From a virus: DNA of 23,534 nt. Under the pieces are notes generated by a model. The model ran no database searches. It was given only the letters and a program-made list of their open reading frames with translations, and was not told where the DNA came from. A program made the translations under genes and the position numbers. Of this stretch, positions 8,647 to 21,901 are shown one piece after another; the stretch's first letter is position 1, and the number at the start of each line of letters is the position of its first letter. The stretch lies in IMG/VR virus record IMGVR_UViG_3300047365_000080, positions 1 to 23,534 of that record; one strand, given 5' to 3'.

Positions 8647-8675
8647 ATTTTAGCAAAATTTTAAGTTCATGTCAA
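8647..8675 (-). promoter_or_regulatory. Sigma70 promoter for the head/tail operon
   Basis: Minus-strand TTGACA (8675-8670), a 17-base spacer and TAAAAT (8652-8647), with TG one base before the -10. It sits in the only gap between terminase large subunit and HNH. It shares the TTGACAT core, the spacing and the T-rich spacer end with the promoters at 13,656-13,684 and 21,873-21,901. Confidence 0.8.
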
Positions 8676-8698: not shown

Positions 8699-9997
8699 TT
8701 AGAATGTAGTGACACTTGTCTCGAATGAGTATAGCGCGTATCGAATGGCGTCTGCCATGTGAGATGCATAATTGTGTTTGGGTTTTTCTTTTAATAAGTT
8801 AGGATTTGGGTCCCACTGATATTGGTCTAAACTTGATATAGATTCACGACAAGCTTGATGAACTATTAATTTATCATTATCCACTACTCCAGCTACGTGT
8901 CCTATACCGTCTAAAACAGATTTCTTTGCATTGATAGTAGTGATATCATAATTTTGTGCAAAATCGAACCTTGTTTGCTGAGCAGCAGAATCAATGTAAA
9001 TGTAATCTATGTCCCACTTCTGAATTAGTTTCTGAATCTCTATTGCATGTTGTTCTGTAGTTCGTTCTGCATCAAGATATTCATCCAGTAAGTAGTATGT
9101 TTCTGAATCCCAATCATATCCGAAAACACAGAAAGCCGTGGGGTCTTTGTAACCAACGTCCATTCCTGCGAAGATATCCATTCTCGAGGTATCTATTTCT
9201 GATAAATCTGATAAACACTTTTCATGATTGAACGCCCATACTTGACCTTCAAACACATTGAAGTCCGCCATATACTCTTGATTAAACTCAGCTTCTGACA
9301 TCGTCTTCTTTGCTTCGATTATATCTTGCTCAGATATTCTAGGGTTCTCGTGATATGTTGCCTTGATACTTGCCCATTCTGGAAACTCATCTGAGAATCC
9401 TCTGTACCAAAACTCTGCAAACCAATTATTTCTACCCCTTGGAGTAGATATAAAGAGTGCTTTTGAGTTTTCTTTATCTAGTGTGGGCCTGAGCGCAACA
9501 TTGAAAGCATCCCGCCCGTCAACGAGAGCGGCCTCGTCGAATATGATGAGGTCATAAGACCTACCCACGACCGAGTCAACTTGGTTAACGGAACCCATAC
9601 GAATCGTACTATGGTTTGAAAGTTCAATAACTTTATCTTTTGCATTGTCTCTTAATACCTCTAAATCAAAGTGCTTAATTAATTGCCTTTGTAAATCAAA
9701 TGAAATTTGAGAAAGTGAATAGTTGGGTGACATCAATAATACATTAGCTCCTGGAACTAAAGTAGTTAATTGACCTATGATATTGGCAATGTAGGTTTTA
9801 CCTTGCCTTCTTGAAACTGCGGCAGTAACAAAACGATACTTTGGATTATTGATTGCATTTATAATTCCATGCTGAGAACTATTAGGTGTAATTCCTAACA
9901 AGTTCATATATCCATCAATAGGTAATTTTATAAATCTTCTATCATCGAACTTCATAATGTGGTCTGAAACCACATCCGTTCTGCTTATTTCAATCAA
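8699..9997 (-). CDS. terL: Terminase large subunit
   Basis: A 432-residue packaging motor. The ATPase domain has Walker A SRRQGKT (residues 62-68), Walker B DLIIFDEA (149-156, with D154-E155) and the coupling motif STP (184-186). The RNase H-like nuclease domain has metal-binding candidates D280 (FAGMDVGYKDPTA), D336 (YIYIDSA) and D416 (HMADAIRYAL). All catalytic positions are present and the length is normal. The start ATG at 9997 overlaps the stop of the preceding 75-residue gene. The gene ends just before the promoter of the head operon. Its usual partner, a small-subunit-like gene, lies about 10.7 kb upstream at 20,728-21,195 rather than adjacent. Confidence 0.95.
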   Translation of the reverse strand: MIEISRTDVVSDHIMKFDDRRFIKLPIDGYMNLLGITPNSSQHGIINAINNPKYRFVTAAVSRRQGKTYIANIIGQLTTLVPGANVLLMSPNYSLSQISFDLQRQLIKHFDLEVLRDNAKDKVIELSNHSTIRMGSVNQVDSVVGRSYDLIIFDEAALVDGRDAFNVALRPTLDKENSKALFISTPRGRNNWFAEFWYRGFSDEFPEWASIKATYHENPRISEQDIIEAKKTMSEAEFNQEYMADFNVFEGQVWAFNHEKCLSDLSEIDTSRMDIFAGMDVGYKDPTAFCVFGYDWDSETYYLLDEYLDAERTTEQHAIEIQKLIQKWDIDYIYIDSAAQQTRFDFAQNYDITTINAKKSVLDGIGHVAGVVDNDKLIVHQACRESISSLDQYQWDPNPNLLKEKPKHNYASHMADAIRYALYSFETSVTTF

Positions 9998-10229: not shown

Positions 10230-10940
10230 CTATACTTGTAGTAAATCGTTTGAGATGTGGTCATTATGTTTTGTTGGAATATATGGCCACTTCATATACT
10301 CCCATGCAACACTATATCTATAGTCTCGACTTTTATTCTCATAGCACCCATGTATTAGATTGGGATGAAAAAATACTGCAAAAGGCTCATCTAGTTCTAA
10401 ATCTATTACTTCTTCATTGGTTTTAAGGTCTATCCACTTAATCCATTCTTGATGCGATTGCCTATCATGATTAAGTACGCCTTGTTTATGAGATTCTTTT
10501 ACTATTCGTAAACATCCACTTTCTTTTGTTGCTCCATTTACAAAAACATCACAACTTATTAGTTTATCTGGATGTGCTTCAATATAGTAATTGTCTTGGT
10601 GCCAGCTTACTGACTTTCCTTCTCGTGGAATCATTGGAAAAAACTTAGATATATAAGTACTTAAGTGATTTGTTCGTAGTAATGTTCTTGCTACCTTTAA
10701 TAATTTAGGATTTCTACCTAATTTTTTAAAAGTTTCATTATATTTCATCGCTCCTTGTAACATCATAGGGTTATACGGAGTGTTCATTAGCCAATTTTCT
10801 TGTGTATGCGCCGAAATAGTCTTTGCATATCTAGTCAAAGTGTTACATGTGAGGTTGAGCTCTTCATGTTCCTCTTTACTTAGAAAGTTTTTTACAATTA
10901 AATAACCTTTTTTACGGAATTGACTAATGTCATAGTTCAC
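10230..10940 (-). CDS. PhyH-family 2-oxoglutarate/Fe(II) dioxygenase
   Basis: A 236-residue member of the phytanoyl-CoA dioxygenase (PhyH) superfamily. The opening FRKKGYLIVKNFLSKEE is the usual PhyH start. The iron ligands are H114 and D116 (SWHQDNYY) and H197 (NLIHGCYENKS), and R208 (RDYRYSV) is placed to bind the 2-oxoglutarate carboxylate. Length and ligand spacing are normal, so the enzyme should be active. PhyH and related oxygenases recur in marine phages, often with unknown substrates such as modified nucleotides, lipids, glycans or protein side chains. Context, between the basic-protein cluster and terL, does not identify the substrate. Confidence 0.85.
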   Translation of the reverse strand: MNYDISQFRKKGYLIVKNFLSKEEHEELNLTCNTLTRYAKTISAHTQENWLMNTPYNPMMLQGAMKYNETFKKLGRNPKLLKVARTLLRTNHLSTYISKFFPMIPREGKSVSWHQDNYYIEAHPDKLISCDVFVNGATKESGCLRIVKESHKQGVLNHDRQSHQEWIKWIDLKTNEEVIDLELDEPFAVFFHPNLIHGCYENKSRDYRYSVAWEYMKWPYIPTKHNDHISNDLLQV

Positions 10941-10943
10941 TTT

Positions 10944-11249
10944 TTACCATTTTACCTTATTTGCCCAGTAAGCAGCTGACATTTTGCCTTTAGCAATGTT
11001 TCTTCTATGTCTAGCTTTGAAACTTTTACGCTTCATCTTCATTCTACGTGACTCTCCTGCTTTAGGTTTGCCCGCAGTCTTAGCTCCTTTCTGTCCAAAT
11101 CTTATTGTTTTGATTTTACCGCCCACCTTTGCCACAACTATATGTGATTTAGTTCTGTGACCTGGTGTTCTTTTTGGTTTGTTGAAACCTGAGACTCCTG
11201 CTCTTTTTAATCTAGGGTCTCTTTTACGTCCTTTCTTACGTGTAGGCAT
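10944..11249 (-). CDS. Highly basic 101-residue phage protein (DUF6321-like)
   Basis: An extremely Lys/Arg-rich protein with short conserved blocks I recognise from many marine phages: 'DPRLKRAGVSGFNKPKRTPGH', 'IKTIRFGQKGAKTAGKPKAGES' and the C-terminal 'GKMSAAYWANKVKW'. I associate these with a small uncharacterised family (DUF6321, from memory, not checked). Composition suggests nucleic-acid or capsid-interior binding. The start has an almost perfect ribosome site (AGGAGGT) six bases before the ATG, pointing to high expression. It lies four bases upstream of the PhyH gene and follows the 87-residue basic gene closely. Confidence 0.75.
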   Translation of the reverse strand: MPTRKKGRKRDPRLKRAGVSGFNKPKRTPGHRTKSHIVVAKVGGKIKTIRFGQKGAKTAGKPKAGESRRMKMKRKSFKARHRRNIAKGKMSAAYWANKVKW

Positions 11250-11251
11250 TT

Positions 11252-11515
11252 CTACCTCCTACGTAATATTCTGCTATGTCCTTTTTTGCTGAATCTAGCT
11301 TTTTTAGGATTCTTTGTTTTACCGAATCTAGGACCGATAGCTTTTGGTGCAGATGCGTATCTCATTGCTTCCATACTTCCTGCTTTTCTGCTATTTACAG
11401 TAGCTCCTGCTGCTGCATTCATGTCTCTAGTAACTCCTCTTTTGAGTTTGTGTTTACGGATTTTCTGTGTGCTGTGAACACCAGTAGGTCCGCTTAAAAA
11501 ACCGCCTCTAGCCAT
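11252..11515 (-). CDS. Basic 87-residue protein
   Basis: Begins MARGGFLSGPTGVHS and is rich in Lys, Arg, Ala, Gly and Ser, with the C-terminus FSKKGHSRILRRR. No enzyme motif or membrane segment is present. The GGAGAA ribosome site lies at the end of the small upstream reading frame, so the two are probably coupled. It is one of four basic proteins in a row, likely DNA- or virion-associated. The function is unknown to me. Confidence 0.65.
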   Translation of the reverse strand: MARGGFLSGPTGVHSTQKIRKHKLKRGVTRDMNAAAGATVNSRKAGSMEAMRYASAPKAIGPRFGKTKNPKKARFSKKGHSRILRRR

Positions 11516-11516
11516 T

Positions 11517-11657
11517 TTATTCTCCTACAAGCTTTTTTAATTGCTCGTCTCGAAAGACGCATTTGTTCATTGATGCATAATCTTTCAGTTTCTTTAAATT
11601 TGTTAACTTCTGTCTTGAGTCTATTATTAACGATGCTACTGCTTTCTCTACCCCCAT
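11517..11657 (-). CDS. Possible small protein (46 residues, start uncertain)
   Basis: A reading frame fills the gap between two basic-protein genes. From the ATG at 11657 it reads MGVEKAVASLIIDSRQKL and ends LKKLVGE at the TAA at 11519-11517, just before the next ATG. The frame is open further upstream (an ATT at 11699 would give 60 residues) and overlaps the end of the 97-residue basic gene, but no better ATG or clear ribosome site exists. The helical, amphipathic composition looks like coding sequence. Confidence 0.4.
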   Translation of the reverse strand: MGVEKAVASLIIDSRQKLTNLKKLKDYASMNKCVFRDEQLKKLVGE

Positions 11658-11704
11658 AAGTGTATAAGCTAGCTCTAGTTTGTGGTCTAGCTGCTTAATG
11701 GAGA

Positions 11705-11998
11705 TTATCTTCTTTTTCTTCGTGTAGTTTTTCGTTTTTTGCCTCTCTTTGCATAAGTACGAACGTTAGTAGGTTTTCCTCCAACGCCCTGTGCTACTTT
11801 TCTTTTTCTCCTTACTGCTGAACGTTTTTGAGCTTTACTCATAGTTCTAGCACGAGCTAAAGGAACACATTTAGGATAGCCTTTTCTTCCTGTCTTAGCT
11901 TTCCCTCTTCCACAAGGTTGATATCTGCCTTTCTTTTTTGGTCTTCCAATATCTACCCATTTTTCTTTAAACCATTTTTTAAGTCCGGTACTAGCCAC
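11705..11998 (-). CDS. Basic 97-residue phage protein (DUF5872-like)
   Basis: Starts MASTGLKKWFKEKWVDIG, then 'KGRYQPCGRGKAK', 'GYPKCVPLARARTMSKAQKRSAVRRKR' and an Arg/Lys tail. The PCGR...YPKCVP...MSKAQ layout with two Cys is shared by small uncharacterised proteins of many marine phages (DUF5872, from memory). The pair of Cys and the strong positive charge suggest a nucleic-acid-binding, possibly metal-binding, protein. The start overlaps the stop of the preceding 63-residue basic gene by eight bases. Confidence 0.7.
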   Translation of the reverse strand: MASTGLKKWFKEKWVDIGRPKKKGRYQPCGRGKAKTGRKGYPKCVPLARARTMSKAQKRSAVRRKRKVAQGVGGKPTNVRTYAKRGKKRKTTRRKRR

Positions 11999-12182
11999 GT
12001 CTGTACCTCCCGCCTCTTTTCTTGTATTCTCTAACTAACCATGCATTTGCATATGCGCTAGGATATACTGCGAACTTTCTTTTTGTTGCTGCTTTTACTC
12101 TTGCATAGAGTTTTTTATTAGTAGGTACGTTACGTGATTTTCTTGCTACCTTCCTTCTTGATTTTTTTCTACGTGCTGCCAT
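11991..12182 (-). CDS. Basic 63-residue protein
   Basis: Reads MAARRKKSRRKVARKSRNV..., then 'KRKFAVYPSAYANAWLVREYKKRGGRY'. The YPSAYANAW motif recurs in small phage proteins of the DUF5872-like type, so this and the next gene may be related halves of one family. I prefer the ATG at 12182 over the upstream in-frame ATG at 12209, because the extra nine residues (MSGGLYTLI) are unlike the rest. Neither start has a strong ribosome site. The function is unknown; DNA or RNA binding is likely from its charge. Confidence 0.6.
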   Translation of the reverse strand: MAARRKKSRRKVARKSRNVPTNKKLYARVKAATKRKFAVYPSAYANAWLVREYKKRGGRYRRG

Positions 12183-12243
12183 AATTAAAGTGTAGAGTCC
12201 CCCACTCATTGACTGAAGAAGAGAACTCTAACTGGGTATTAAC

Positions 12244-13383: not shown

Positions 13384-13611
13384 CTAGTGCATTGTTATCA
13401 TGGTTGTTACAATGCCGATTAAGGATACAAGTAAAAAACCTGCACATCCTAATAGTATAGATTCTATTCTAGAAACTTGTCCTTCGATTCCATTGAATCT
13501 GTCCGAAGCTCCTTTTTCCATAGACTCTATTTTGTTAAATATTGTCTTCCATCTTTCAGCACAGATAGCTTCATGCTTTTCAAGATTTGCAGCTACCTGC
13601 TCGATTTCCAT
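13384..13611 (-). CDS. Coiled-coil membrane protein, XhlA-like
   Basis: About 75 residues: a coiled-coil N-terminus (EQVAANLEKHEAICAERW, IFNKIESMEK, FNGIEGQVSRIESIL) followed by one C-terminal transmembrane helix (LLGCAGFLLVSLIGIVTTMI). This matches small phage holin-accessory proteins of the XhlA type. The frame extends upstream to a GTG at 13647, but the ATG at 13611 has GGGGACTAAC before it and fits the promoter at 13,656-13,684, which would give about a 40-base leader. It is the first gene of that transcript, so a lysis or membrane role fits. No endolysin was seen nearby. Confidence 0.65.
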   Translation of the reverse strand: MEIEQVAANLEKHEAICAERWKTIFNKIESMEKGASDRFNGIEGQVSRIESILLGCAGFLLVSLIGIVTTMITMH

Positions 13612-13655
13612 GTTAGTCCCCTTTACATCTTGTGGATATTTCCACACTTATGAAA

Positions 13656-13684
13656 ATTATATCAAAATATCAACAAGATGTCAA
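13656..13684 (-). promoter_or_regulatory. Perfect-consensus sigma70 promoter
   Basis: Minus-strand TTGACA (13684-13679), exactly 17 bases, TATAAT (13661-13656), with an extended -10 TGA in front. It lies immediately after the stop of the cyclase gene and upstream of the small-protein/late operon. It belongs to a sequence repeated at 21,873-21,917. Confidence 0.9.
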
Positions 13685-13700
13685 GTATTATTTTCGTATG
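13677..13700 (-). repeat. Promoter repeat, copy 1
   Basis: A 24-base stretch, identical except for one base to 21,894-21,917 in the same orientation. It covers the -35 box of the promoter and the last codons of the CHASE2-cyclase gene (Ile-Arg-Lys-stop). The two copies bracket the island from cyclase to methyltransferase. Confidence 0.85.
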
Positions 13701-15469
13701 GTATAGATTTTTACTGGCTCCGACTTGCCTTTTACAGTTACCTCGTCAAGAAACTCGTACTCATAACCATCTACTAAACTGTGTTCAGATATTATTAAAT
13801 CTGCATCATAATCTTTGCAACTTGACTCTAACCTTGCAGCCAGATTAACCGCATCGCCAAGGACGCTGTAATCGAAACGAGTAGTAGAGCCAAAGTTGCC
13901 AACCACGCAAGGACCTGAATTGATGCCAGCACCTGTATTAATTTGGTCAAGGCCTTCATCTTTAAGTGTTTCATTTAATTTCTCCAAAGCTATTCTCATT
14001 TCAATAGCCGCTTTTGTTGCATTCTCTATATGATTCTCGTCAGGAAGCGGAGCTCCCCAGAAAGCCATGATGCAATCTCCCATATACTTATCGATTGTAC
14101 CTCCATGCTTGAGAATTATCTCAGTCTGGTTGTCAAGGAAACGATTAATGAGGCTCGTAAGTCCTTGTGGATTTTTTTGATATTTTTCTGAAATCGGTGT
14201 AAATCCTCTGATGTCAGAAAAAAGAAAAGTTAGTTGTTCCGTGAACCCACCCAATCTCAGTAATGATGGGTCTTCCTGTAATTTTTTGACAAGGTCGGGA
14301 CTTACGTACGTGCCGAATTGTTGTTTGATTCGAAGTTTCTGACGATACTCGGAAAGGAAACTCAGGAAAGTATGATACCCCCAGTACAAAATCGAGATAA
14401 CTACGACACCATTAAGGTTAAGTAAGTAGGAAGATTTATAGGCATACCCCATTCCATAGAACGCTCCTGCTACAACTAGTACTAAAGCTAGTACAGAAAG
14501 ATAGACTCGAGAGACCGTAAGAGCCAATAAGGTGAGGCCAAGTAAACTGTAGGCAAGCTGAGCAGAAAGAGTCCAGGTCGGTGCAGAAGGTGCAGTGCCG
14601 TTGATAAGATTGTGTAATATATTTGCTTGAATTTCATGTGGGTATTTAGCCCCCGCAGGGGTCGGCACAGGGTTTGTTATGCCCTCTGCAGTCGTGCCGA
14701 TAATTACAAAAGGTGCATCAATCGGCTGTTGTAAATATTCTAGTAAGCTTTGTCTATAAAAGTTCGTGTTCCAATTTAAAAAGATACGACCATTCGCATC
14801 TGTATTCATAAGTGGGTAGTTTGGTATTCTAACCCAAGTAACGCCTTCTTCTGTTGTTTTTAGCTGGTACGAAGGGTCTCCTACTGCGACTCTTAAGAGT
14901 TCGAGTGCGAAGCTTGGGTAAAGTTTTGACTCTACGTTTACGACTAGGGGAATACGACGAGTAACCCCGTCTATTTCCGGCGTAGCGGTTACTAGTCCGA
15001 GCCCCTTTGTTTTTGACTCCAGAGTAGATTCGGTAGGTAAAATTCCTGGATACTGATATAGCCATGGTGTTGGGTCCTCTCCTAACTGGGCAGTTCCTAC
15101 ATGAGGATTAGTTCCAGTTACTTGTGTCGATGCTGCACTAGCAAGGACAGTAGGTCTTACTTCTAGCCTGCGTATAAAGTAATCATCTTGCATTGGCCCT
15201 CGTAAGTCTTTGTTTGGCATTAATACTGTAATGCCTGGAATTGCCTCGGTCTGCATTATAGCATCTCCATAGACACTTCTCGGTAATGGCCATCCTTCAT
15301 AAGTCTTGACTGTTTCTTCGTCAATATCAACTATGAGAATGTTTTCGTTTTGAACTACTTCTGTATTCATAATTAAGTAGTCAAATGTTTTAAGTTCTAA
15401 AATTTGGAAAGGATAGGGATTCCATATAAGAAGTCCCATTGCTAGTACAATTGTGATTAGTTTATTCAT
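13688..15469 (-). CDS. CHASE2-sensor class III adenylate cyclase
   Basis: A 593-residue membrane receptor. An N-terminal TM helix (residues 3-16) precedes an extracytoplasmic CHASE2 domain (about 25-295; markers ILIVDIDEETVKTYEGWPLPRSVYGD, GLGLVTATPEIDGVTRRIPL, VIIGTTAEGI). Three TM helices follow (about 302-320, 322-344, 348-372), then a cytoplasmic cyclase. The catalytic domain is complete: metal ligands D419 (FSDIRGFT) and D465 (KYMGD), adenine-selecting K461 and D539 (LGDAVN), and transition-state N542 and R546 (NLAARLE). It should therefore make cAMP from ATP in response to an outside signal. CHASE2 cyclases often sit beside FecR-domain genes in bacteria, as here. Start ATG at 15469 overlaps the previous gene. 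The last codons overlap the promoter repeat. Finding such a receptor in a phage is very unusual. Confidence 0.93.
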   Translation of the reverse strand: MNKLITIVLAMGLLIWNPYPFQILELKTFDYLIMNTEVVQNENILIVDIDEETVKTYEGWPLPRSVYGDAIMQTEAIPGITVLMPNKDLRGPMQDDYFIRRLEVRPTVLASAASTQVTGTNPHVGTAQLGEDPTPWLYQYPGILPTESTLESKTKGLGLVTATPEIDGVTRRIPLVVNVESKLYPSFALELLRVAVGDPSYQLKTTEEGVTWVRIPNYPLMNTDANGRIFLNWNTNFYRQSLLEYLQQPIDAPFVIIGTTAEGITNPVPTPAGAKYPHEIQANILHNLINGTAPSAPTWTLSAQLAYSLLGLTLLALTVSRVYLSVLALVLVVAGAFYGMGYAYKSSYLLNLNGVVVISILYWGYHTFLSFLSEYRQKLRIKQQFGTYVSPDLVKKLQEDPSLLRLGGFTEQLTFLFSDIRGFTPISEKYQKNPQGLTSLINRFLDNQTEIILKHGGTIDKYMGDCIMAFWGAPLPDENHIENATKAAIEMRIALEKLNETLKDEGLDQINTGAGINSGPCVVGNFGSTTRFDYSVLGDAVNLAARLESSCKDYDADLIISEHSLVDGYEYEFLDEVTVKGKSEPVKIYTIRK

Positions 15470-15899
15470 ATTTGTTTATACTATATAAATTACTTACTAT
15501 TACTATGCCTAATGTTGCATTTAGTCCATTAATGTACCATTGGTCGTCTGGGTGAGTACTAAACAAACCCAAGTAGCTCATTGTAGATATTACTACAGCC
15601 TTCTGTATAATTAGTTCTTCAGGACTTGGTTTCCTTGGAAGTAGAAAATTTGTTTCATATAAAGTATCTCTATTTTCCATAGCATATATAGTAGAAGCAA
15701 CGTCTAGTATGTTTAGTATTAAAAAGGTTTTGTGTTTTTCATTCTCAAAGTCAAAGTGATACGTTACTTCAGAAGCTTCTATTTTAGATGCGTCTTGTTG
15801 CATCTGCTCGAAGTCCCAAGGTATATCAACCTGAAGATTGACGGATGCGAATACTGGAGTTGTCACCAGAGTTAAGAATAATGTTATAGCTTTTACCAT
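15462..15899 (-). CDS. Exported small membrane protein, unknown
   Basis: About 145 residues, starting with a signal peptide (VKAITLFLTLVTTPVFA) and continuing with an acidic mature N-terminus. 'FLILNILDVASTIYAMENRDTLYETNF' resembles small multi-TM proteins with a D-x-x-(S/T)-T motif (DUF5658-like, uncertain). It ends with two hydrophobic helices (AVVISTMSYLGLFS, LGIVIVSNLYSI). I place the start at the ATG at 15899; a TTG at 15908 is the other choice. Its signal peptide lies inside the 3' end of the FecR gene (74-base overlap) and its stop overlaps the cyclase ATG. It may bridge the FecR protein and the CHASE2 sensor in the membrane or periplasm, an idea based on position only. Confidence 0.65.
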   Translation of the reverse strand: MVKAITLFLTLVTTPVFASVNLQVDIPWDFEQMQQDASKIEASEVTYHFDFENEKHKTFLILNILDVASTIYAMENRDTLYETNFLLPRKPSPEELIIQKAVVISTMSYLGLFSTHPDDQWYINGLNATLGIVIVSNLYSINKYE

Positions 15900-16926
15900 C
15901 TTGTTCAATTATTATATTATAGCTTGTCTCACCATTGAGTTCTAGTTGTACGGATTGAGTAACGCTACGAATTATTGTAATCTTTTCTGCGTCACCAAAT
16001 GTTAAAATCTGTGTTGTTGGGTCTTGCCCGAATAATGTACCTTGTACATCAAATTCTGAAAAAGCTTGTGTACCTCTTGATTCTTTTACTGCAAGTGCAT
16101 CTAGTTCCTCGATAACTTCCAACAAGTCTTCGAGAAAGTTTACATCTAAATAGTCTATGTCAAGTTCATTAAAAGATAAGTCTTCTTCTAAATAATCTAT
16201 ATCTAAACCGTCGTAAGCGAGAAGGTCGACATCAAGAATATTGTCATCAGACTCATCACTTCCAACTTCTCCTGCAGTTTCTTCTTCTTCATTTTTAGGT
16301 GGGCTCACTATGAGCATGTTGTCTATGATGTCCAGTGTCAAGTCTAGTATCATCGGTGCAGTAGGTGTACTTTCCCACATACTAGTTACTGTTGATTCAT
16401 AAGGTTTATTGAGTATGACTTCTCCCATGGCTGTTGCTACTACAATCTCGCCACTTGGAAGTCCCATATCGTCTGGTAGTAATATTACTAAACTTCTTCC
16501 TAACTCATCCACTGTCACAGTAAAGTCCGTGCCTCGAATAGCAATCTGAGAAGTCGGTGTTTCAATCTTAATATTTTGTTTATTAATCTTGCCAATACCA
16601 CCAGTAATAAAACGAGCTGTTCCACTTGCAAACTTCATTGACATCTGCGACTTGCTAGGGTCGGGGTCAAAGATTACTTTGTCTATTATAAGTTTACTAT
16701 GCTCTGTGAGTCGGACTTTACTATCGTCTATGAATGTGATACCTAATCGCCCATTAGCTGTACGCACATCATCCATTTGCTCAATGTCAAATCCTAAGTC
16801 CGTGTTGTAGGGCTTGTCTCTAAGTACTTGCCCTACTCCACGTAGTTCTGTAATGCTTCCTATATCAGCATGAAGTGGAAGTCCCACCATCATTCTGAAT
16901 AACACAAATATTGCTATTAGACGCAT
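15826..16926 (-). CDS. FecR-domain periplasmic protein
   Basis: About 366 residues after a signal peptide (MRLIAIFVLFRMMVGLPLHA). In numbering that includes a TTG-start extension of three residues, the FecR-type beta domain is at about 56-145: 'VRTANGRLGITFIDDSKVRLTEHSKLIID', 'SGTARFITG' and the hallmark 'IKIETPTSQIAIRGTDFTV'. Next come a beta-rich stretch, an acidic linker (216-290) with the repeated unit LDIDYL, and a C-terminal region (NGETSYNIIIEQDGKSYNIILNSG, ending RIRQSSG) with curlin-like Asn/Gln/Gly spacing. Such FecR proteins are commonly encoded with CHASE2-cyclases and may present signals to them. The start at 16926 lies inside the 3' end of the curlin gene (62-base overlap). Confidence 0.85.
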   Translation of the reverse strand: MRLIAIFVLFRMMVGLPLHADIGSITELRGVGQVLRDKPYNTDLGFDIEQMDDVRTANGRLGITFIDDSKVRLTEHSKLIIDKVIFDPDPSKSQMSMKFASGTARFITGGIGKINKQNIKIETPTSQIAIRGTDFTVTVDELGRSLVILLPDDMGLPSGEIVVATAMGEVILNKPYESTVTSMWESTPTAPMILDLTLDIIDNMLIVSPPKNEEEETAGEVGSDESDDNILDVDLLAYDGLDIDYLEEDLSFNELDIDYLDVNFLEDLLEVIEELDALAVKESRGTQAFSEFDVQGTLFGQDPTTQILTFGDAEKITIIRSVTQSVQLELNGETSYNIIIEQDGKSYNIILNSGDNSSIRIRQSSG

Positions 16927-17581
16927 TACTTTCAATTTTCAACCAGTCGGCTGCTAATGTTGACTGCTGTTTGATAACCGCAGTATTATTACTTCCCTCT
17001 AAGTCGAGGTAGAAGTATTTAGCATCGCTTGAACTAGCTCCATATCCAGATTGGATAAAAGTTATATCGTTGCTGTCGCCAAGAACGTCCCAGAATATAG
17101 TTGCATAATCTACATCTATATCTACTTCTGCTTCATTACTATCTCCATCGATAATCCAATCAATGTCTAGATAGTTTGCGGCATCATCTTCACCGATATC
17201 TATATCTGCAATGTTGAGTGAACCAGTAACGTCAATGTTAATATTATTGCCGTCAGCTGTGTTTAGCCCGGTTGTGTCCATGCTAAAGTCCCACACGTTT
17301 GAGTCTCCATCAAATTCAAAGAAGCCAGTAAAATTATCACCAAGTATTCCATCGGTAAGAAATTTATTGGAGCTTCCTATTTGATTGATGTCTAAGACCA
17401 TTGTTGTTCCATTCAAGATTGCTTTTGTCATTGAACCTGCAGTTGCATCGTCACCACCAATTATATTGTTAGAGCCGAGTTGTTCCAAGTCAATACTAGC
17501 ATTATTTCCTGTTTGGTCAATATAGATTTCATTGTCTGCGAACAGACCAACTGATAAAAACAAGGCTATTAATATCCTCAT
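16865..17581 (-). CDS. Secreted curlin-repeat (CsgA/CsgB-like) protein
   Basis: About 238 residues. Signal peptide MRILIALFLSVGLFA, then ten or so units marked by G-(S/D/N)-(N/S/L)-N at residues 25, 36, 69, 92, 111, 120, 146, 168 and 196. The first unit, IYIDQTGNNASIDLEQLGSNN, fits the curlin consensus Q-x-G-x-N-x-A-x3-Q well. Later units keep the Gly-Asn turn but replace Gln by Asp (INIDVTGSLNIADIDIG), making the protein strongly acidic. The C-terminus has two Cys. Curlins are exported by CsgG and assemble as beta-solenoid amyloid on the cell surface, and this gene directly follows csgG with a two-base gap after its stop. The upstream-extended frame to 17635 is an artefact of the csgG overlap. 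Exact role (fibre, nucleator or other) is not known. Confidence 0.82.
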   Translation of the reverse strand: MRILIALFLSVGLFADNEIYIDQTGNNASIDLEQLGSNNIIGGDDATAGSMTKAILNGTTMVLDINQIGSSNKFLTDGILGDNFTGFFEFDGDSNVWDFSMDTTGLNTADGNNINIDVTGSLNIADIDIGEDDAANYLDIDWIIDGDSNEAEVDIDVDYATIFWDVLGDSNDITFIQSGYGASSSDAKYFYLDLEGSNNTAVIKQQSTLAADWLKIESNASNSNICVIQNDGGTSTSC

Positions 17582-17582
17582 T

Positions 17583-18431
17583 TTAGTCTCCCAAATAGTA
17601 CTTCCAGTACCCTTTTTCCTGTCCTTTTTGTACAAGCTCTACTACTGAAGTTTCAATAGCCGCTTGTAAAGCAATGAACTTAGGTTCGTTCATAGAGTTT
17701 CCACTCTCAACTTCCACTAAGTCATTCTCAGTAGTAAATCTAAAATAATCATTACTAACTCCCACGGAGAGGATTGCTTTTGAAGTAAGGATGTCCAATA
17801 AGATTTCTCCTGTACTCACAGAAACTAACCTCATTGATACCACCACTGTATCCTCACGATATTGCTTGGAAGTTCCTATACCTAAATAGCGGGCTCCAGC
17901 TCCCCCGGTTAATACATTAGTATTGTAATCTACAATACCCCCTTCAATGATGATACCAGCATACAGCAGTGGTAACTGTTTATCTTTCTCATCAAATCTC
18001 TCACGAGTAGAACGAATCAACTGACGCTCTTTTGTTAAATGGTCTAGTCCTTTTCTTTCTACTACTTTAAAGAATCCACTAGATTTCAACGCACGAATCA
18101 AATAAGCCTCTGGAGCTTGTGTCATAGCGCTTGAGAAATCTGCGATTCCATCTCTTGATTTTCTTTGTCCTGTTAAGTCTTCGAATTTATAGATAGCAAC
18201 AACGGGCGTTCTTGCGGGTAAGGGTAGGGATTGTATTTCTTTTGTGACAGGTTTTTCAAGTACAGCAGCACCTGAGAAGCACTCTGCCTTTCGTATGATT
18301 GTAGTTAAGTCTTTGTAGTCCCCATCGGGGTTAGTCATGCACGGTGATATATAACCACTGTGCGTTGCACAACTAGAAACCAAAGTCCCCAATAGGGATA
18401 GTAATAGTAGTTGTCTCACCAGTTGCCTCAT
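17583..18431 (-). CDS. csgG: Curli secretion channel lipoprotein CsgG
   Basis: A 282-residue protein with a lipoprotein signal peptide (lipobox LVSSC, C21) and clear CsgG family blocks: 'VVAIYKFEDLTGQRKS', 'VVERKGLDHLTKERQLIR', 'IIIEGGIVDYNTNVLTGGAGARYLGIGTSKQYR', 'SMRLVSVSTGEILLDILTSKAILS', 'FRFTTENDLVEVE', 'NEPKFIALQAAIETSVVELV'. In E. coli CsgG forms a nonameric outer-membrane pore that exports curli subunits. The loop forming the E. coli constriction (Tyr51, Asn55, Phe56) reads RKSRDGIADFSSAM here: the Phe is kept, the Tyr and Asn are not evident. The start ATG at 18431 overlaps the end of the CsgF-like gene by 59 bases; a GTG four codons later with GAGG upstream is an alternative. A complete, apparently functional gene. 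Confidence 0.95.
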   Translation of the reverse strand: MRQLVRQLLLLSLLGTLVSSCATHSGYISPCMTNPDGDYKDLTTIIRKAECFSGAAVLEKPVTKEIQSLPLPARTPVVAIYKFEDLTGQRKSRDGIADFSSAMTQAPEAYLIRALKSSGFFKVVERKGLDHLTKERQLIRSTRERFDEKDKQLPLLYAGIIIEGGIVDYNTNVLTGGAGARYLGIGTSKQYREDTVVVSMRLVSVSTGEILLDILTSKAILSVGVSNDYFRFTTENDLVEVESGNSMNEPKFIALQAAIETSVVELVQKGQEKGYWKYYLGD

Positions 18432-18987
18432 TAAATATGGTCATTGTTATTGTAATGCCATCACTCGTCCAAGTGATTAAGTTATCGAATAACTGAAATG
18501 ACCCTTCTTCTGCAGGGTTCTCTCCAAACAAACTATCAACTAGCTGTCGAGATAACTGTGCATATATTCTACTTTCAAAGTTCTTTATAAATCTTGCGAG
18601 AGTTGTGTTTTCTTCTTCCCGCTTTGCTGCGTCTGCCAAAGCTTTTATCTCAGCTTTTACAGCGTCCTTCTTTGTTATTTCTTGTGAGTCAATAGTTAAG
18701 TAGTGAGAGGATGTTCCAACTCCACTAAATGAAGGACTTTTAAATTTGTGTTTGATTTCGTCAGCTTGCATGTCAAAAGCGATTGAAGCAGTACACAAGC
18801 ACAGAAGTGCCAACATTACACCATTTGTAATCTTCTCATCTTTTTGCCTTTGTTCATAGCCGTCAGTATCAAAGTTACGGTCTTGATGTATCTGTCCTCT
18901 GCGAAAGACTGCGTCATAGTTTTCTGCGTATGCGGCAGAAGGCTTTGTTATAAGTTTATCACCTGTTATGTCGTTTTTGTTTTTCAT
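18373..18987 (-). CDS. csgF: CsgF-like curli assembly protein
   Basis: The C-terminal 125 residues match CsgF: 'HKFKSPSFSGVG' corresponds to the FRNPNFGG segment with which CsgF inserts into the CsgG pore, followed by a helix (LARFIKNFESRIYAQLSRQLVDSLFG) and a beta end (DGITITMTIFNEATGETTTITIPIG) like CsgF's NRDGQLQL...TGQTSTIQV. In E. coli CsgF docks on CsgG outside and anchors the nucleator. The frame starts at 18987, but a secretion signal (MLALLCLCTASIAF) begins at residue 58 (ATG at 18816). The true start may be there, or the first 57 residues may be a cytoplasmic extension; no ribosome site decides it. The gene overlaps csgG and the 84-residue membrane gene. Confidence 0.8.
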   Translation of the reverse strand: MKNKNDITGDKLITKPSAAYAENYDAVFRRGQIHQDRNFDTDGYEQRQKDEKITNGVMLALLCLCTASIAFDMQADEIKHKFKSPSFSGVGTSSHYLTIDSQEITKKDAVKAEIKALADAAKREEENTTLARFIKNFESRIYAQLSRQLVDSLFGENPAEEGSFQLFDNLITWTSDGITITMTIFNEATGETTTITIPIGDFGF

Positions 18988-19213
18988 TTTCTTTCATTTG
19001 TAAAACAGTGTTTACCTTTTGCTGTAAACGAATCATATCGTTATCGAGCATACGTATTTGGTCTATCAGCTTTATGAGAGTCATATGCATTTCCTTTACT
19101 GTTGGATTGATTACTTGTGTTATCGTTGTCCATACAAAGTATACGAAATATCCCAGACCGACCATTGCCACCACGGGGAAACCAAATTTTTGAATCGCGT
19201 CAACTATTTCCAT
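18959..19213 (-). CDS. Small membrane protein, YvrJ-like (84 residues)
   Basis: An N-terminal TM helix (FGFPVVAMVGLGYFVYFVW) is followed by a coiled coil (PTVKEMHMTLIKLIDQIRMLDNDMIRLQQKVN) and a basic tail. The FGFPVxA start recalls the YvrJ family. It is clearly paralogous to the 97-residue gene at 19,317-19,610: both have a GxP turn, a TM helix and 'NDMI+L...V...L' at the same spacing. Its ATG overlaps the stop of the 37-residue gene. The order suggests a membrane complex feeding or regulating the CsgG system. Confidence 0.65.
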   Translation of the reverse strand: MEIVDAIQKFGFPVVAMVGLGYFVYFVWTTITQVINPTVKEMHMTLIKLIDQIRMLDNDMIRLQQKVNTVLQMKENEKQKRHNR

Positions 19214-19317
19214 CTATTATCTATCCATACTTTATAAGTATATAATAGACCTATCCAGAACGTAAATAATATACCGTCCCAATATGATAAACTGTCCCAA
19301 GCTGATACTACATCCAT
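19204..19317 (-). CDS. Tiny membrane protein (37 residues)
   Basis: Reads MDVVSAWDSLSYWDGILF, then one TM helix (ILFTFWIGLLYTYKVWI) and ends NRWK. GGAGAGAC lies just before the ATG. Both its start (TAATG) and its stop overlap neighbouring genes, which supports true translation. Family unknown; probably part of the same membrane set as its two paralogous neighbours. Confidence 0.6.
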   Translation of the reverse strand: MDVVSAWDSLSYWDGILFTFWIGLLYTYKVWIDNRWK

Positions 19318-19610
19318 TAGTCTCTCCTTACATCAATACTTCCGTCTTCTACGAAATTTTCTGCTCTTGCAATTCTGTCCAAATCAGGTGTAAGTTCAAG
19401 AGCTGCGCTTACACTTGTGTCTAACTTTATCATGTCATTATTTATAGTCTTGACACGAGTTATGAGACTTTCCGTAAACATCTTCAGGGTGTTGATTGAG
19501 TTTACCACACCTTCAAAAATTTGTCGCATGATTACGAATATAAAACCACCCATGACTATAGCAGCCGCAATGGGTGCTCCGACATCTGTGATTAAGCTGA
19601 AAATATCCAT
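19317..19610 (-). CDS. Small membrane protein, paralogue of 84-residue gene
   Basis: About 97 residues: MDIFSLITDVGAPIAAAIVMGGFIFVIM is a membrane segment, followed by a helical coiled-coil part (VVNSINTLKMFTESLITRVKTINNDMIKLDTSVSAALEL) and an acidic tail. The start is taken at the ATG at 19610, with AGGT upstream, inside the 3' end of the previous gene; the frame runs further to 19673 without a good start. Similarity to 18,959-19,213 in length, turn, TM and coiled coil suggests an old duplication. Function unknown. Confidence 0.65.
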   Translation of the reverse strand: MDIFSLITDVGAPIAAAIVMGGFIFVIMRQIFEGVVNSINTLKMFTESLITRVKTINNDMIKLDTSVSAALELTPDLDRIARAENFVEDGSIDVRRD

Positions 19611-19828
19611 GAGTTTACCTGAAACATTCCGAGCATTCCGAAGAACACGCTTACTTGAATAATAGACGCCCAAAAGATTTGTTTCATTGGATGAATTTCC
19701 GTCAACTTTTCTACTATTGACTCGCTGGGGCTTAGGTTAACTACTTGTAGTACTTTCCTAGAAGCCGATGCTTTCTCCACATCCACATCTGTATTTTTCT
19801 TTTGGGTTGATAATTTTAAATCCTTCAT
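19592..19828 (-). CDS. Small membrane protein (78 residues)
   Basis: Starts MKDLKLSTQKKNTDVDVEKA and ends in a hydrophobic helix (IFWASIIQVSVFFGMLGMFQV). AGAAGGA lies four bases before the ATG at 19828. The first 71 bases overlap the end of the IscA-like gene in another frame; a shorter start (a GTG inside, or M48 MKQIFW) is possible. It joins the following membrane genes by overlap. It is the first gene of the membrane/curli set. Confidence 0.5.
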   Translation of the reverse strand: MKDLKLSTQKKNTDVDVEKASASRKVLQVVNLSPSESIVEKLTEIHPMKQIFWASIIQVSVFFGMLGMFQVNSWIFSA

Positions 19829-20075
19829 TTAATCCTTCTACCTGCCAGTCCAGGGTTATGCCTTCCAAATAGGGTGCTGAATTGGGGTCTATGCGAAATG
19901 CTATACGCCCCCAATCCAGAACCAAATCACTTGAATAAGTTTCACTATTAAAATTAAAACTATACTCCATACCACCGCAGCCGCCCCCAGTAATACCAAG
20001 TCTAAAAACAAAGTTCTCTTGGTGCGCGGCTTTCTGTATAAGTCTAGTATAAGCTTCATTAGTGACATCTATCAT
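19758..20075 (-). CDS. IscA/HesB-type Fe-S carrier protein
   Basis: A 105-residue A-type carrier. It has the three metal-binding Cys of the family, C33 (TGGGCGGMEYSF) and C97/C99 (RCGCGES), with the usual beta-sandwich blocks and the C-terminal 'FKIINP...'. In bacteria such proteins pass 2Fe-2S or 4Fe-4S clusters from the scaffold to target enzymes. The gene follows the IscU-like gene within 40 bases, making a scaffold-carrier pair without IscS, HscA/B or ferredoxin. Host enzymes would have to supply sulfur. Length and residues are normal, so it should be active. Confidence 0.92.
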   Translation of the reverse strand: MIDVTNEAYTRLIQKAAHQENFVFRLGITGGGCGGMEYSFNFNSETYSSDLVLDWGRIAFRIDPNSAPYLEGITLDWQVEGLNEGFKIINPKEKYRCGCGESIGF

Positions 20076-20112
20076 TTCCTATAATACCTCTCGCCAAATA
20101 TTTTGTATTCGG

Positions 20113-20547
20113 TTAGATTTCATCATCTTGTGGAACTGTTTCCATATTATTTTCATTTTTCTCCTTCCAGTTTTGGATTGCTTGTTTAATAGAATCCTCA
20201 GCTAGAACGGAGCAGTGTAACTTGATAGGCGGAAGCTGTAACGCTTCTGCTATGTCTTTGTCCTTAATCTCTTTTGCTTCTTCAATTGTTTTACCTTTTA
20301 GTAATTCTACGAACATAGTAGAAGAAGCTATAGCACTTCCACATCCGTAGGTTTTAAACTTAACATCAATGATTGTTTCATCTTTGTCTAGTTTAAGTTG
20401 TAATTTCATGACATCACCACATGCAGGTGCTCCTGTCATACCAGTAGCTACATCGGGGTCATTTGGGTCAAAGCGACCCACACTGAACTGCTTAGGACTT
20501 GCTAAGACTTGTTCGAACCTTTCTACTACTTCTTTACTATACGCCAA
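20113..20547 (-). CDS. iscU: IscU-type Fe-S cluster scaffold
   Basis: A 144-residue scaffold with all cluster ligands: C43 with D45 (GAPACGDVMKLQ), C69 (TYGCGSAIASS) and C112 (LPPIKLHCS). The LPPIK segment corresponds to the LPPVK motif recognised by the HscA chaperone. The N-terminal 'YSKEVVERFE' is also typical. IscU assembles 2Fe-2S clusters from IscS-derived sulfur. The C-terminal 15 residues are an added acidic tail (ENNMETVPQDDEI). It is co-transcribed with the IscA-like gene and overlaps the preceding small gene by 11 bases. Confidence 0.93.
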   Translation of the reverse strand: MAYSKEVVERFEQVLASPKQFSVGRFDPNDPDVATGMTGAPACGDVMKLQLKLDKDETIIDVKFKTYGCGSAIASSTMFVELLKGKTIEEAKEIKDKDIAEALQLPPIKLHCSVLAEDSIKQAIQNWKEKNENNMETVPQDDEI

Positions 20548-20728
20548 CTTGTTTGATTCCTAGAACATAGTTTTCTGCTGCATTCTCTGCATACGATTCA
20601 CTGTGTCCTACGTAGAGTTCTTCTCCAACTCTTTCATCATTATCATAAAAGGTTGCACCATAGTGGCCATCCTTTTTGAAAACTTCTGCGCGTTTGTCTT
20701 CTTGCATGTAACTGCTTAAATGTATCAT
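20537..20728 (-). CDS. Small hypothetical protein (63 residues)
   Basis: Reads MIHLSSYMQEDKRAEVFKKDGHYGATFYDNDERVGEELYVGHSESYAENAAENYVLGIK, a compact beta-beta-beta-alpha pattern. The ATG at 20728 overlaps the terminase small-subunit stop. It overlaps the IscU gene at its end. Small proteins of this layout occur widely in marine phages, but I know no function. Confidence 0.6.
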   Translation of the reverse strand: MIHLSSYMQEDKRAEVFKKDGHYGATFYDNDERVGEELYVGHSESYAENAAENYVLGIKQVGV

Positions 20729-21195
20729 TATTCCTCCTTTAATAGTTTTTCCATGAGTTTCCCATAGTTACCTTGTCCAAAAGGTAAATCACTATTAATT
20801 TGTACATTTGTTTGGTTTTTAATATTGGAGGCTTTTGCTTTCTCCAAGTCTGCCATAGCTTTTATTTCGTCCATTCTCATTTTATGTGCCATTGAGAGCA
20901 GGTCGGCTATGTCTTTGTTAGTATAAATTTGAGATTCTTCTGCTTCGTCTAACTTCTTATCTATTATATCGTCTAGTGCATGGGCTATCTTAAATCTATT
21001 TCTGTAGCCCGTGTCCAGGTACACTTGGTCGATATATTGTTTAATCTCTCGCTTACCTAAATAATCTTGCACGGTATTTTCATCTATATTTAGGCGTATG
21101 CATACAGCTTGTGTAGACCCAAGTTCTAAGTATGCGTTGGCTATCTCTAACCCTTCTGGACTCATTTTTACTGCGATATCTGTTGGTTTACTCAT
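20728..21195 (-). CDS. Terminase small subunit-like protein
   Basis: A 155-residue, largely helical protein with an N-terminal helix-turn-helix-like part (NAYLELGSTQAVCIRLNIDENTVQDYLG), a middle helical region (FKIAHALDDIIDKKLDEAEE...DIADLLSMAHKMRMDEIKAM) and a C-terminal 'GNYGKLMEKLLKEE' tail of the kind that contacts the large subunit. This fits phage small terminases, which recognise the packaging site. It lies about 10.7 kb from terL, separated by the curli island, a very unusual spacing. An alternative is a DNA-binding regulator of similar fold. Confidence 0.7.
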   Translation of the reverse strand: MSKPTDIAVKMSPEGLEIANAYLELGSTQAVCIRLNIDENTVQDYLGKREIKQYIDQVYLDTGYRNRFKIAHALDDIIDKKLDEAEESQIYTNKDIADLLSMAHKMRMDEIKAMADLEKAKASNIKNQTNVQINSDLPFGQGNYGKLMEKLLKEE

Positions 21196-21872: not shown

Positions 21873-21901
21873 ATTATATCAAATTTTATATCTGATGTCA
21901 A
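21873..21901 (-). promoter_or_regulatory. Perfect-consensus sigma70 promoter for the island operon
   Basis: Minus-strand TTGACA (21901-21896), 17 bases, TATAAT (21878-21873), extended -10 TGA. The -10 ends six bases before the methyltransferase ATG (21866), so transcription should begin at or near the A of the ATG. The likely transcript covers methyltransferase, terminase small subunit, Fe-S genes and curli island. Confidence 0.9.

Follow-up and report, generated by a model that had tools for sequence, protein, structure and literature searches.

The virus record IMGVR_UViG_3300047365_000080 (positions 1–23,534; the whole stretch of 23,534 bases is hereafter the window) encodes, between the genes for the small and large terminase subunits (terS and terL), an island that, on balance, appears to be an entire curli (type VIII) secretion operon that comes with a signalling arm of its own and by which a lineage of T5-like marine phages would place amyloid on the infected cell. 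The genes for CsgF, CsgG, a curlin-repeat protein, a FecR-domain protein and a CHASE2-adenylate cyclase form one minus-strand series with overlapping or adjacent frames (Table 1), and Pfam searches locate all five where an initial annotation, made from the sequence alone, had placed them. The module is real and widespread in IMG/VR, and it is largely known already. As far as we have searched, the new elements are the T5-like carrier lineage, the promoter-bounded unit that includes terS, the separate histories of the export core and the cyclase, bacterial operons that contain FecR and the cyclase, and the C-terminal tail of FecR.

Like E. coli-type curli, for which the layout is csgBAC-csgDEFG, the island encodes a CsgG channel protein (E-value 5.5e-45 to the solved structure 4uv2) and a protein of the CsgF family, whereas CsgE, present in E. 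coli, was not found here and FecR and the cyclase are added. CsgG, CsgF and a curlin-repeat substrate with a signal peptide are all identifiable, so that the secreted curlin-like substrate and its export genes, as annotated, hold up at the level of predicted genes. CsgG carries a lipobox-like SSC motif (judged by eye). The longest open reading frame (ORF) of CsgF begins within twB and has a hydrophobic signal at residues 53–71; its profile retrieved no solved structure at E up to 0.01.

The order of genes from terS to terL is repeated in several independent contigs (e.g., L004, L005, L011, L016 and L022), another contig (L164) is 99–100% identical to the window across the shared genes, from the methyltransferase to PhyH, and the same order recurs in a 105-kb contig. 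These observations indicate that the join is real and not an artefact; a chimeric assembly, which the initial annotation had named as the outcome that would undo it, is thereby ruled out. Furthermore, the cyclase, FecR, curlin and CsgG genes are under purifying selection, with ratios of nonsynonymous to synonymous substitution rates (dN/dS) of 0.08–0.24 in pairwise comparisons with four relatives where computable, some dS values being saturated. Beyond the five named genes, the cassette has three extra members, twA, twB and a protein of 148 amino acids (aa; 15462–15908). The latter, with dN/dS of 0.36–1.07 in four comparisons, evolves much faster than its neighbours.

The predicted substrate has a hydrophobic signal at the N-terminus and a Curlin_rpt match just above the cut-off (22.5 bits vs. 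20.7). It contains seven G-x-x-N units, a number reached by 7 of 2000 shuffled sequences; in 116 curlin homologues, the mean is 7.3, compared with 2.4 in shuffles (shuffle maximum 10), and a Cys pair at the C-terminus is kept in 108 of the 116. The AlphaFold2 model, obtained from 48 sequences, is a confident, beta-rich repeat (predicted local distance difference test, pLDDT, 84.7; predicted template modelling score, pTM, 0.82). Its top match in VIA-align is 8c50, the CsgA of Pontibacter korlensis (Z 17.1, 190 aligned residues, 25% identity), ahead of further beta-helix proteins, the SufB/SufD type among them, that score Z 15.8 or lower. Comparison of the curlin profile with solved structures yielded a single weak match, 2l0d at E 0.028.

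In all 51 FecR proteins searched against Pfam, the FecR domain is present and no anti-sigma domain is found. This domain content, a FecR domain alone with no cytoplasmic anti-sigma part, does not support a role as an iron-dependent anti-sigma regulator. In the window, a hydrophobic signal lies before the FecR domain. The structure model (pLDDT 69.6, pTM 0.47) comprises a signal helix, the FecR fold, a low-confidence linker (209–264), a helix and seven short C-terminal strands (303–366). For the FecR part, structural comparison gives a match (Z 15.8) to 6ovk, the cell-surface signalling domain of PupR; the FecR profile retrieved no solved structure at E up to 1. Residues 22–117 of the model also match the ‘cell surface anchoring domain’ 5ix9 over 72 of 76 residues (26% identity, Z 9.7), a domain that we take to be part of the retention region of a large bacterial adhesin and that presumably would fit an anchoring role.

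The protein ends in a short pattern, [ILVF]x[ILVF]xQ with no more than four residues after it, which is found in all 129 distinct phage FecR proteins; given that the pattern was defined after the phage sequences had been viewed, this count describes the set that suggested it. The same pattern is present in two of the three FecR proteins of bacterial curli operons (L253 and L254) and in none of 75 other bacterial FecR, controls that had not been viewed previously (the 80 bacterial FecR loci are these 75, four reported apart, L253–L256, and one that was dropped). In profile comparison, the tail aligns with the last curlin repeat at a score of 20.4–20.8, against a maximum of 14.9 in 30 column shuffles and 10.3–18.3 for three other parts of FecR. 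The resemblance of the tail to curlin is thus suggestive, not proven.

The membrane cyclase is intact, as annotated, and has both the CHASE2 and the catalytic domain of a CHASE2 class III adenylate cyclase. Six key positions, which we take to be the metal, substrate and transition-state residues, are retained in 39 of 39 T5-type and 77 of 78 other cyclase homologues, and the protein has a match among solved structures. The sole departure among the 118 cyclases compared is that of phage Melnitz (L003, 7826–9877), in which Ser replaces the catalytic Asn. A CHASE2-cyclase is encoded within 2.5 kb after the FecR gene in 22 of the 75 other bacterial FecR loci, so that this pair also occurs independently of curli.

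Promoter-like sites bound both ends of the series from terS to the cyclase, which therefore resembles a single transcription unit, and the operon is probably transcribed together with terS. In 49 of 50 distinct T5-type loci, the downstream site, a sigma-70-type sequence, recurs at the same offset from the cyclase with at least 11 of 12 matches and a variable spacer, compared with 33 of 1500 random 150-bp stretches of T5-type sequence, a background drawn from the same contigs that may contain the promoters themselves. Upstream, the site before the methyltransferase and terS has the same offset in L004, L164 and L174; the end of its -10 box is ~7 nt before the called start codon, which implies either a transcript with almost no leader or a true start located deeper in the gene. 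Sites occupy fixed places before terS in 14 of the 16 loci with sufficient sequence (11 at 36–37 bp from the called start and 3 at 707 bp, before the methyltransferase); given that they were sought within 2.5 kb, where chance 11/12 sites are not rare, it is the fixed offsets that carry weight. Another 11/12 promoter-like site lies on the minus strand between terL and the HNH/portal genes (8647–8675).

The initial annotation, which placed csgG and csgF in pelagimyophages, regarded the full set with a siphovirus-like head and tail as unfamiliar. The gene set itself is not novel: csgF, csgG, csgA/B, FecR, often a second csgA/B, and the adenylate cyclase are described for podovirus and myovirus pelagiphages in the available sections of PMC9599517. 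The literature searched reports no siphovirus or T5-like carrier of a curli module. According to the same sections, the type VIII secretion system (T8SS) module was transferred between pelagiphage families, the cyclase is frequent, not universal, in carriers, CsgE is not universal in alphaproteobacterial modules, and one or two genes called histidine kinase precede the phage csgF. At this place the window has the membrane proteins twA (118 aa) and twB (84 aa), in which Pfam finds no histidine-kinase domain at E up to 10, so that domain content lends no support to reading them as kinases. The published order, csgF-csgG-csgA/B-FecR-(csgA/B)-cyclase, is that of the window.

In the records of pelagiphage HTVC008M (KC465899) and the methylophage Melnitz, the series reads twA-twB-csgF-csgG-curlin-FecR-(second curlin-like gene)-cyclase, so that small membrane proteins, csgF, csgG, curlin, FecR and cyclase come in identical order. 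The available text of PMC9004378 reports csgF and csgG in Melnitz and describes csgA/csgB as absent; the deposited record (MZ577096) annotates two curlin-repeat proteins. Identity between these two phages and the window is only 36–44% for CsgF, CsgG, FecR and the cyclase and 28–31% for the first curlin; the slot of their second curlin holds the 148-aa protein in the window; and, unlike theirs, the carrier of the window is T5-like, with the set inserted between terS and terL. In the phage collection searched, FecR or curlin was matched by the HTVC008M and Melnitz records only; the cyclase additionally has matches, which cover about a quarter of the protein, in two records of Acinetobacter phages and one of a gut phage, and CsgG also matches a 1.5-kb record named Salmonella phage.

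The carrier of the island is a T5-like phage in a siphovirus-like setting, a likeness that refers to predicted genes and does not imply membership in Demerecviridae. The flanking genes encode terS, terL, a portal, a protease-capsid fusion and tail proteins, in agreement with the packaging and structural flanks and siphovirus-like head and tail proposed at first, and the capsid is 33–37% identical to those of T5-like phages. The fusion is a single 684-aa ORF (4748–6802) that joins the head maturation protease to the major capsid protein, separate genes in Escherichia phage T5_ev219. In a 105,272-base IMG/VR relative (G001), 24 of 40 T5_ev219 proteins (Demerecviridae) have a match at E up to 1e-3, spanning the head, tail and replication blocks, in agreement with a T5-like arrangement of packaging, head, tail and replication genes in blocks; in the same comparison, the endolysin, holin and receptor-binding protein of T5 have no match. 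Unlike T5_ev219, in which terS and terL are adjacent, the window has them ~10.7 kb apart with the curli island in between, and, unlike in T5-like phages, a search for tRNA genes found none. A search of the window against Rfam gave no match.

The virus scans cover the best 80 loci only, and the following frequencies apply to those. The cyclase is seen in 30 of the 32 terL loci with at least 4.2 kb upstream (among the 80 best IMG/VR terL loci), the exceptions being L089 and L094. T5-type packaging or head genes occur, within the stretch analysed, in 51 of 169 classed loci with a FecR or CsgG ORF. Other carriers have podovirus-type or other genes, namely, an internal virion protein (L048), an integrase, portal and terminase (L190), or a ribonucleotide reductase and DNA polymerase (L043). 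A ‘/T4’ label attached to some carriers reflects weak similarity to accessory proteins of HTVC008M, including those of nucleotide metabolism, and was not taken to indicate a T4-like carrier.

According to phylogenetic analysis, the export core and the cyclase have separate histories: csgG has been exchanged between virus types, whereas the cyclases of T5-like phages group together. The CsgG tree (61 rows) requires four changes to accommodate its 17 T5-type rows, at least three of them forced by well-supported branches, and 14 other phages are nested within the main T5-type clade; in the cyclase tree, all 19 T5-type rows fall in one group, and the FecR tree forces two changes or more. Redundancy and length filters preceded the trees, so that, for example, the cyclase and FecR trees include L115, L132, L149 and L153, which are missing from the CsgG tree, in which one genome region was entered twice (L335 and L385); the cyclase and FecR trees are quick trees with no bootstrap, and a long-branch warning applies to all three.

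Bacterial operons with the order csgF-csgG-curlin-FecR-cyclase exist and are rare in the order sampled. A FecR profile search identified two Caulobacteraceae metagenome-assembled genomes (MAGs; L253 and L254), from one sampling series, with nearly the same operon, which is chromosomal and sits between metabolic genes; L254 has two curlin genes. Compared with the window, their CsgG is 51%, FecR 38% and cyclase 43% identical and, unlike in the window, no twA or twB match is present. CsgF is found in 42 of 398 genomes searched of the same order, and the 40 of these examined (the genome of L254 being already in the set and G138 left out; several stretches end at contig ends) include one more operon with FecR and the cyclase (L363, in G410, on a 705-kb contig). 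None of the three operons has a detected CsgE. In agreement with the initial suggestion to search phage and bacterial genomes for the gene order, it is thus found in HTVC008M, Melnitz, IMG/VR contigs and three bacterial genomes. When the CsgG tree is rooted on ordinary Caulobacterales CsgG, the three bacterial operons and the phages group together, in no clear branching order relative to each other. FecR beside a CHASE2-cyclase with no curli genes is commoner than the curli operon form. Two contigs labelled as planctomycete MAGs (L255 and L256) hold the phage cassette and are probably phage contigs binned with bacteria, because twA and twB are present.

We propose that CsgG and CsgF would form an outer-membrane channel through which the curlin-like protein would leave to build curli-type amyloid on the infected cell. 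The FecR protein may be secreted as well and pair with curlin through the curlin-like strand at its C-terminus. Through its FecR domain, it could signal to CHASE2, the periplasmic domain of the adjacent cyclase, and the cyclase would produce cyclic AMP (cAMP) for a host effector. The cAMP would act on a host protein, because no cyclic nucleotide (cNMP)-binding protein was found in the virus records. The likeliest gains for the phage would be the capture of cells nearby or protection against other phages; sibling capture has been proposed for phage curli genes in the available part of PMC7029224. Late expression is suggested by the inclusion of a packaging gene in the unit and, at a guess, this location leans slightly towards capture. 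A more elaborate version, which we regard as doubtful, casts FecR as the curlin-sensing subunit: its tail would be drawn into the export stream or the growing amyloid, and the FecR domain would stay in the periplasm and switch the CHASE2-cyclase. The phage would thus run a self-monitoring checkpoint of amyloid secretion that reports to the host via cAMP, and distant lineages would trade the exporter and substrate and keep their own, host-matched cyclase.

Several observations weigh against this explanation. CsgE was found in none of eight virus records and none of three bacterial relatives, and no CsgB nucleator was identified. Although the curlin model is confident and the predicted structure places CsgA first in VIA-align, the alignment with 8c50 has a root-mean-square deviation of 8.7, and Foldseek returned nothing at E up to 0.001. 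The profile match between the FecR tail and curlin is weak (E 0.003–0.008, probability 5–10%), the Pfam curlin repeat is found in none of 51 FecR proteins, and the FecR of one bacterial curli operon (L363) has no tail. The eight virus records, some of them fragmentary, encode no detected cNMP-binding protein (the three bacterial relatives have 4–7). Promoter-like 11/12 sites also occur within the unit in some loci. Finally, according to the available text of PMC9004378, no clumping was seen in Melnitz infections.

The same source proposes a role in lysis for the Melnitz genes, and a lysis device is the foremost alternative, although we consider it unlikely: late in infection, the CsgG(F) channel would make the envelope permeable, aided by twA and twB in a holin-like role, and the export of curlin would be of secondary importance. 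Both twA and twB are small membrane proteins, the holin and spanin matches of which are insignificant, and this alternative persists because two other carriers have an endolysin or weakly holin-like gene close to the cassette: in L043, an endolysin gene is located two genes upstream of twA, and in L048, the gene directly upstream of twA weakly matches a three-span holin family (E 0.011, below cut-off). However, lysis leaves the conserved curlin, the FecR tail and the cyclase unexplained, HTVC008M has no annotated lysis gene beside the set, and bacterial chromosomes contain the same five core genes, which cannot act in phage lysis there.

Alternatively, the main benefit could be host reprogramming by cAMP, such that the FecR-switched cyclase alters host gene expression and curli export is the trigger or carrier. 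The single group of T5-like cyclases with invariant catalytic residues, in contrast to the exchanged csgG, and the bacterial FecR and CHASE2-cyclase pairs that lack curli fit this scheme; we nevertheless judge it improbable, given the similar purifying selection on the export genes and curlin, the absence of a detected phage cAMP receptor in the eight virus records and the indication in PMC9599517, as far as available, that some carriers may lack the cyclase. An import pore, an open channel that admits iron compounds, vitamins or larger molecules to a starved host, as suggested in the available parts of PMC7029224 and PMC9599517, is very improbable: the NifU- and IscA-like genes adjoin the cassette and CsgE is missing from the virus records, but CsgF, curlin and the FecR tail would be unexplained, and the iron-regulator argument is weakened by the lack of an anti-sigma domain in FecR.

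Table 1. Predicted features of the curli island and its borders in the window
Feature	Position	Strand	Support and remarks
terL, terminase large subunit, downstream border of the island	8699..9997	-	phrog_2 3e-45; 50% to Pectobacterium phage My1
87-aa ORF, C-terminal hydrophobic span, probable start 13611	13384..13647	-	first gene after the second promoter; resembles a holin in shape only; no Pfam match
sigma-70-type promoter, 12/12, TG before -10 box	13656..13684	-	begins 3 nt past the cyclase stop codon
CHASE2-adenylate cyclase	13688..15469	-	CHASE2 PF05226 7e-32; cyclase PF00211 3e-20
148-aa protein, fast-evolving	15462..15908	-	no Pfam match; slot empty or second curlin in other carriers
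FecR-domain protein, signal peptide, low-confidence linker, curlin-like C-terminal strand	15826..16935	-	PF04773 3e-11; structure model
curlin-repeat protein (putative substrate), probable true start with signal peptide 17581	16865..17635	-	PF07012 Curlin_rpt 1.1e-4
CsgG, outer-membrane curli channel, signal peptide	17583..18431	-	PF03783 2e-48; solved CsgG 4uv2 5.5e-45
CsgF-like protein	18373..18987	-	PF10614 3e-18, above cut-off
twB, twA paralogue, one predicted membrane span	18959..19213	-	phrog_18771 3e-29; hydrophobicity; retained in HTVC008M and Melnitz
twA, small protein, one or two hydrophobic stretches and polar C-terminal part	19317..19673	-	phrog_18771 2e-25; hydrophobicity; retained in HTVC008M and Melnitz
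NifU-like (20113-20547), IscA/Fe-S_biosyn (19758-20075), 78-aa protein (19592-19828)	19592..20547	-	between terS and the cassette
terS, terminase small subunit, upstream border of the island	20728..21195	-	phrog_3802 1e-39; ~40% to T5-like phages
sigma-70-type promoter, 12/12, TG before -10 box	21873..21901	-	before methyltransferase and terS; same offset in L004, L164 and L174

Several genes around the cassette recur in related loci. The NifU-like and IscA/Fe-S_biosyn-like genes (19758–20547) are retained across many T5-like relatives, and many relatives also keep a series of small Arg/Lys-rich ORFs (101, 87, 97 and 72 aa) between the cassette and terL (10944–12209). A phytanoyl-CoA dioxygenase-like gene lies near the cassette at 10230–10940; HTVC008M has one directly upstream of its own.

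The curli genes of phages have been puzzling since they were noted in pelagimyophages, with respect to the existence of a substrate, the reason for the cyclase and the role of FecR. A curli operon known from other ocean phages is now found in a further virus type, and the separate csgG and cyclase histories in the T5-like lineage suggest that distant virus types exchange the module piecemeal, not only as a whole. If the proposed pathway is correct, the FecR tail, confined in the sets compared to curli-linked FecR, and the transcription unit shared with terS would provide testable handles, and the three bacterial genomes with the same five genes would allow the pathway to be studied free of phage.

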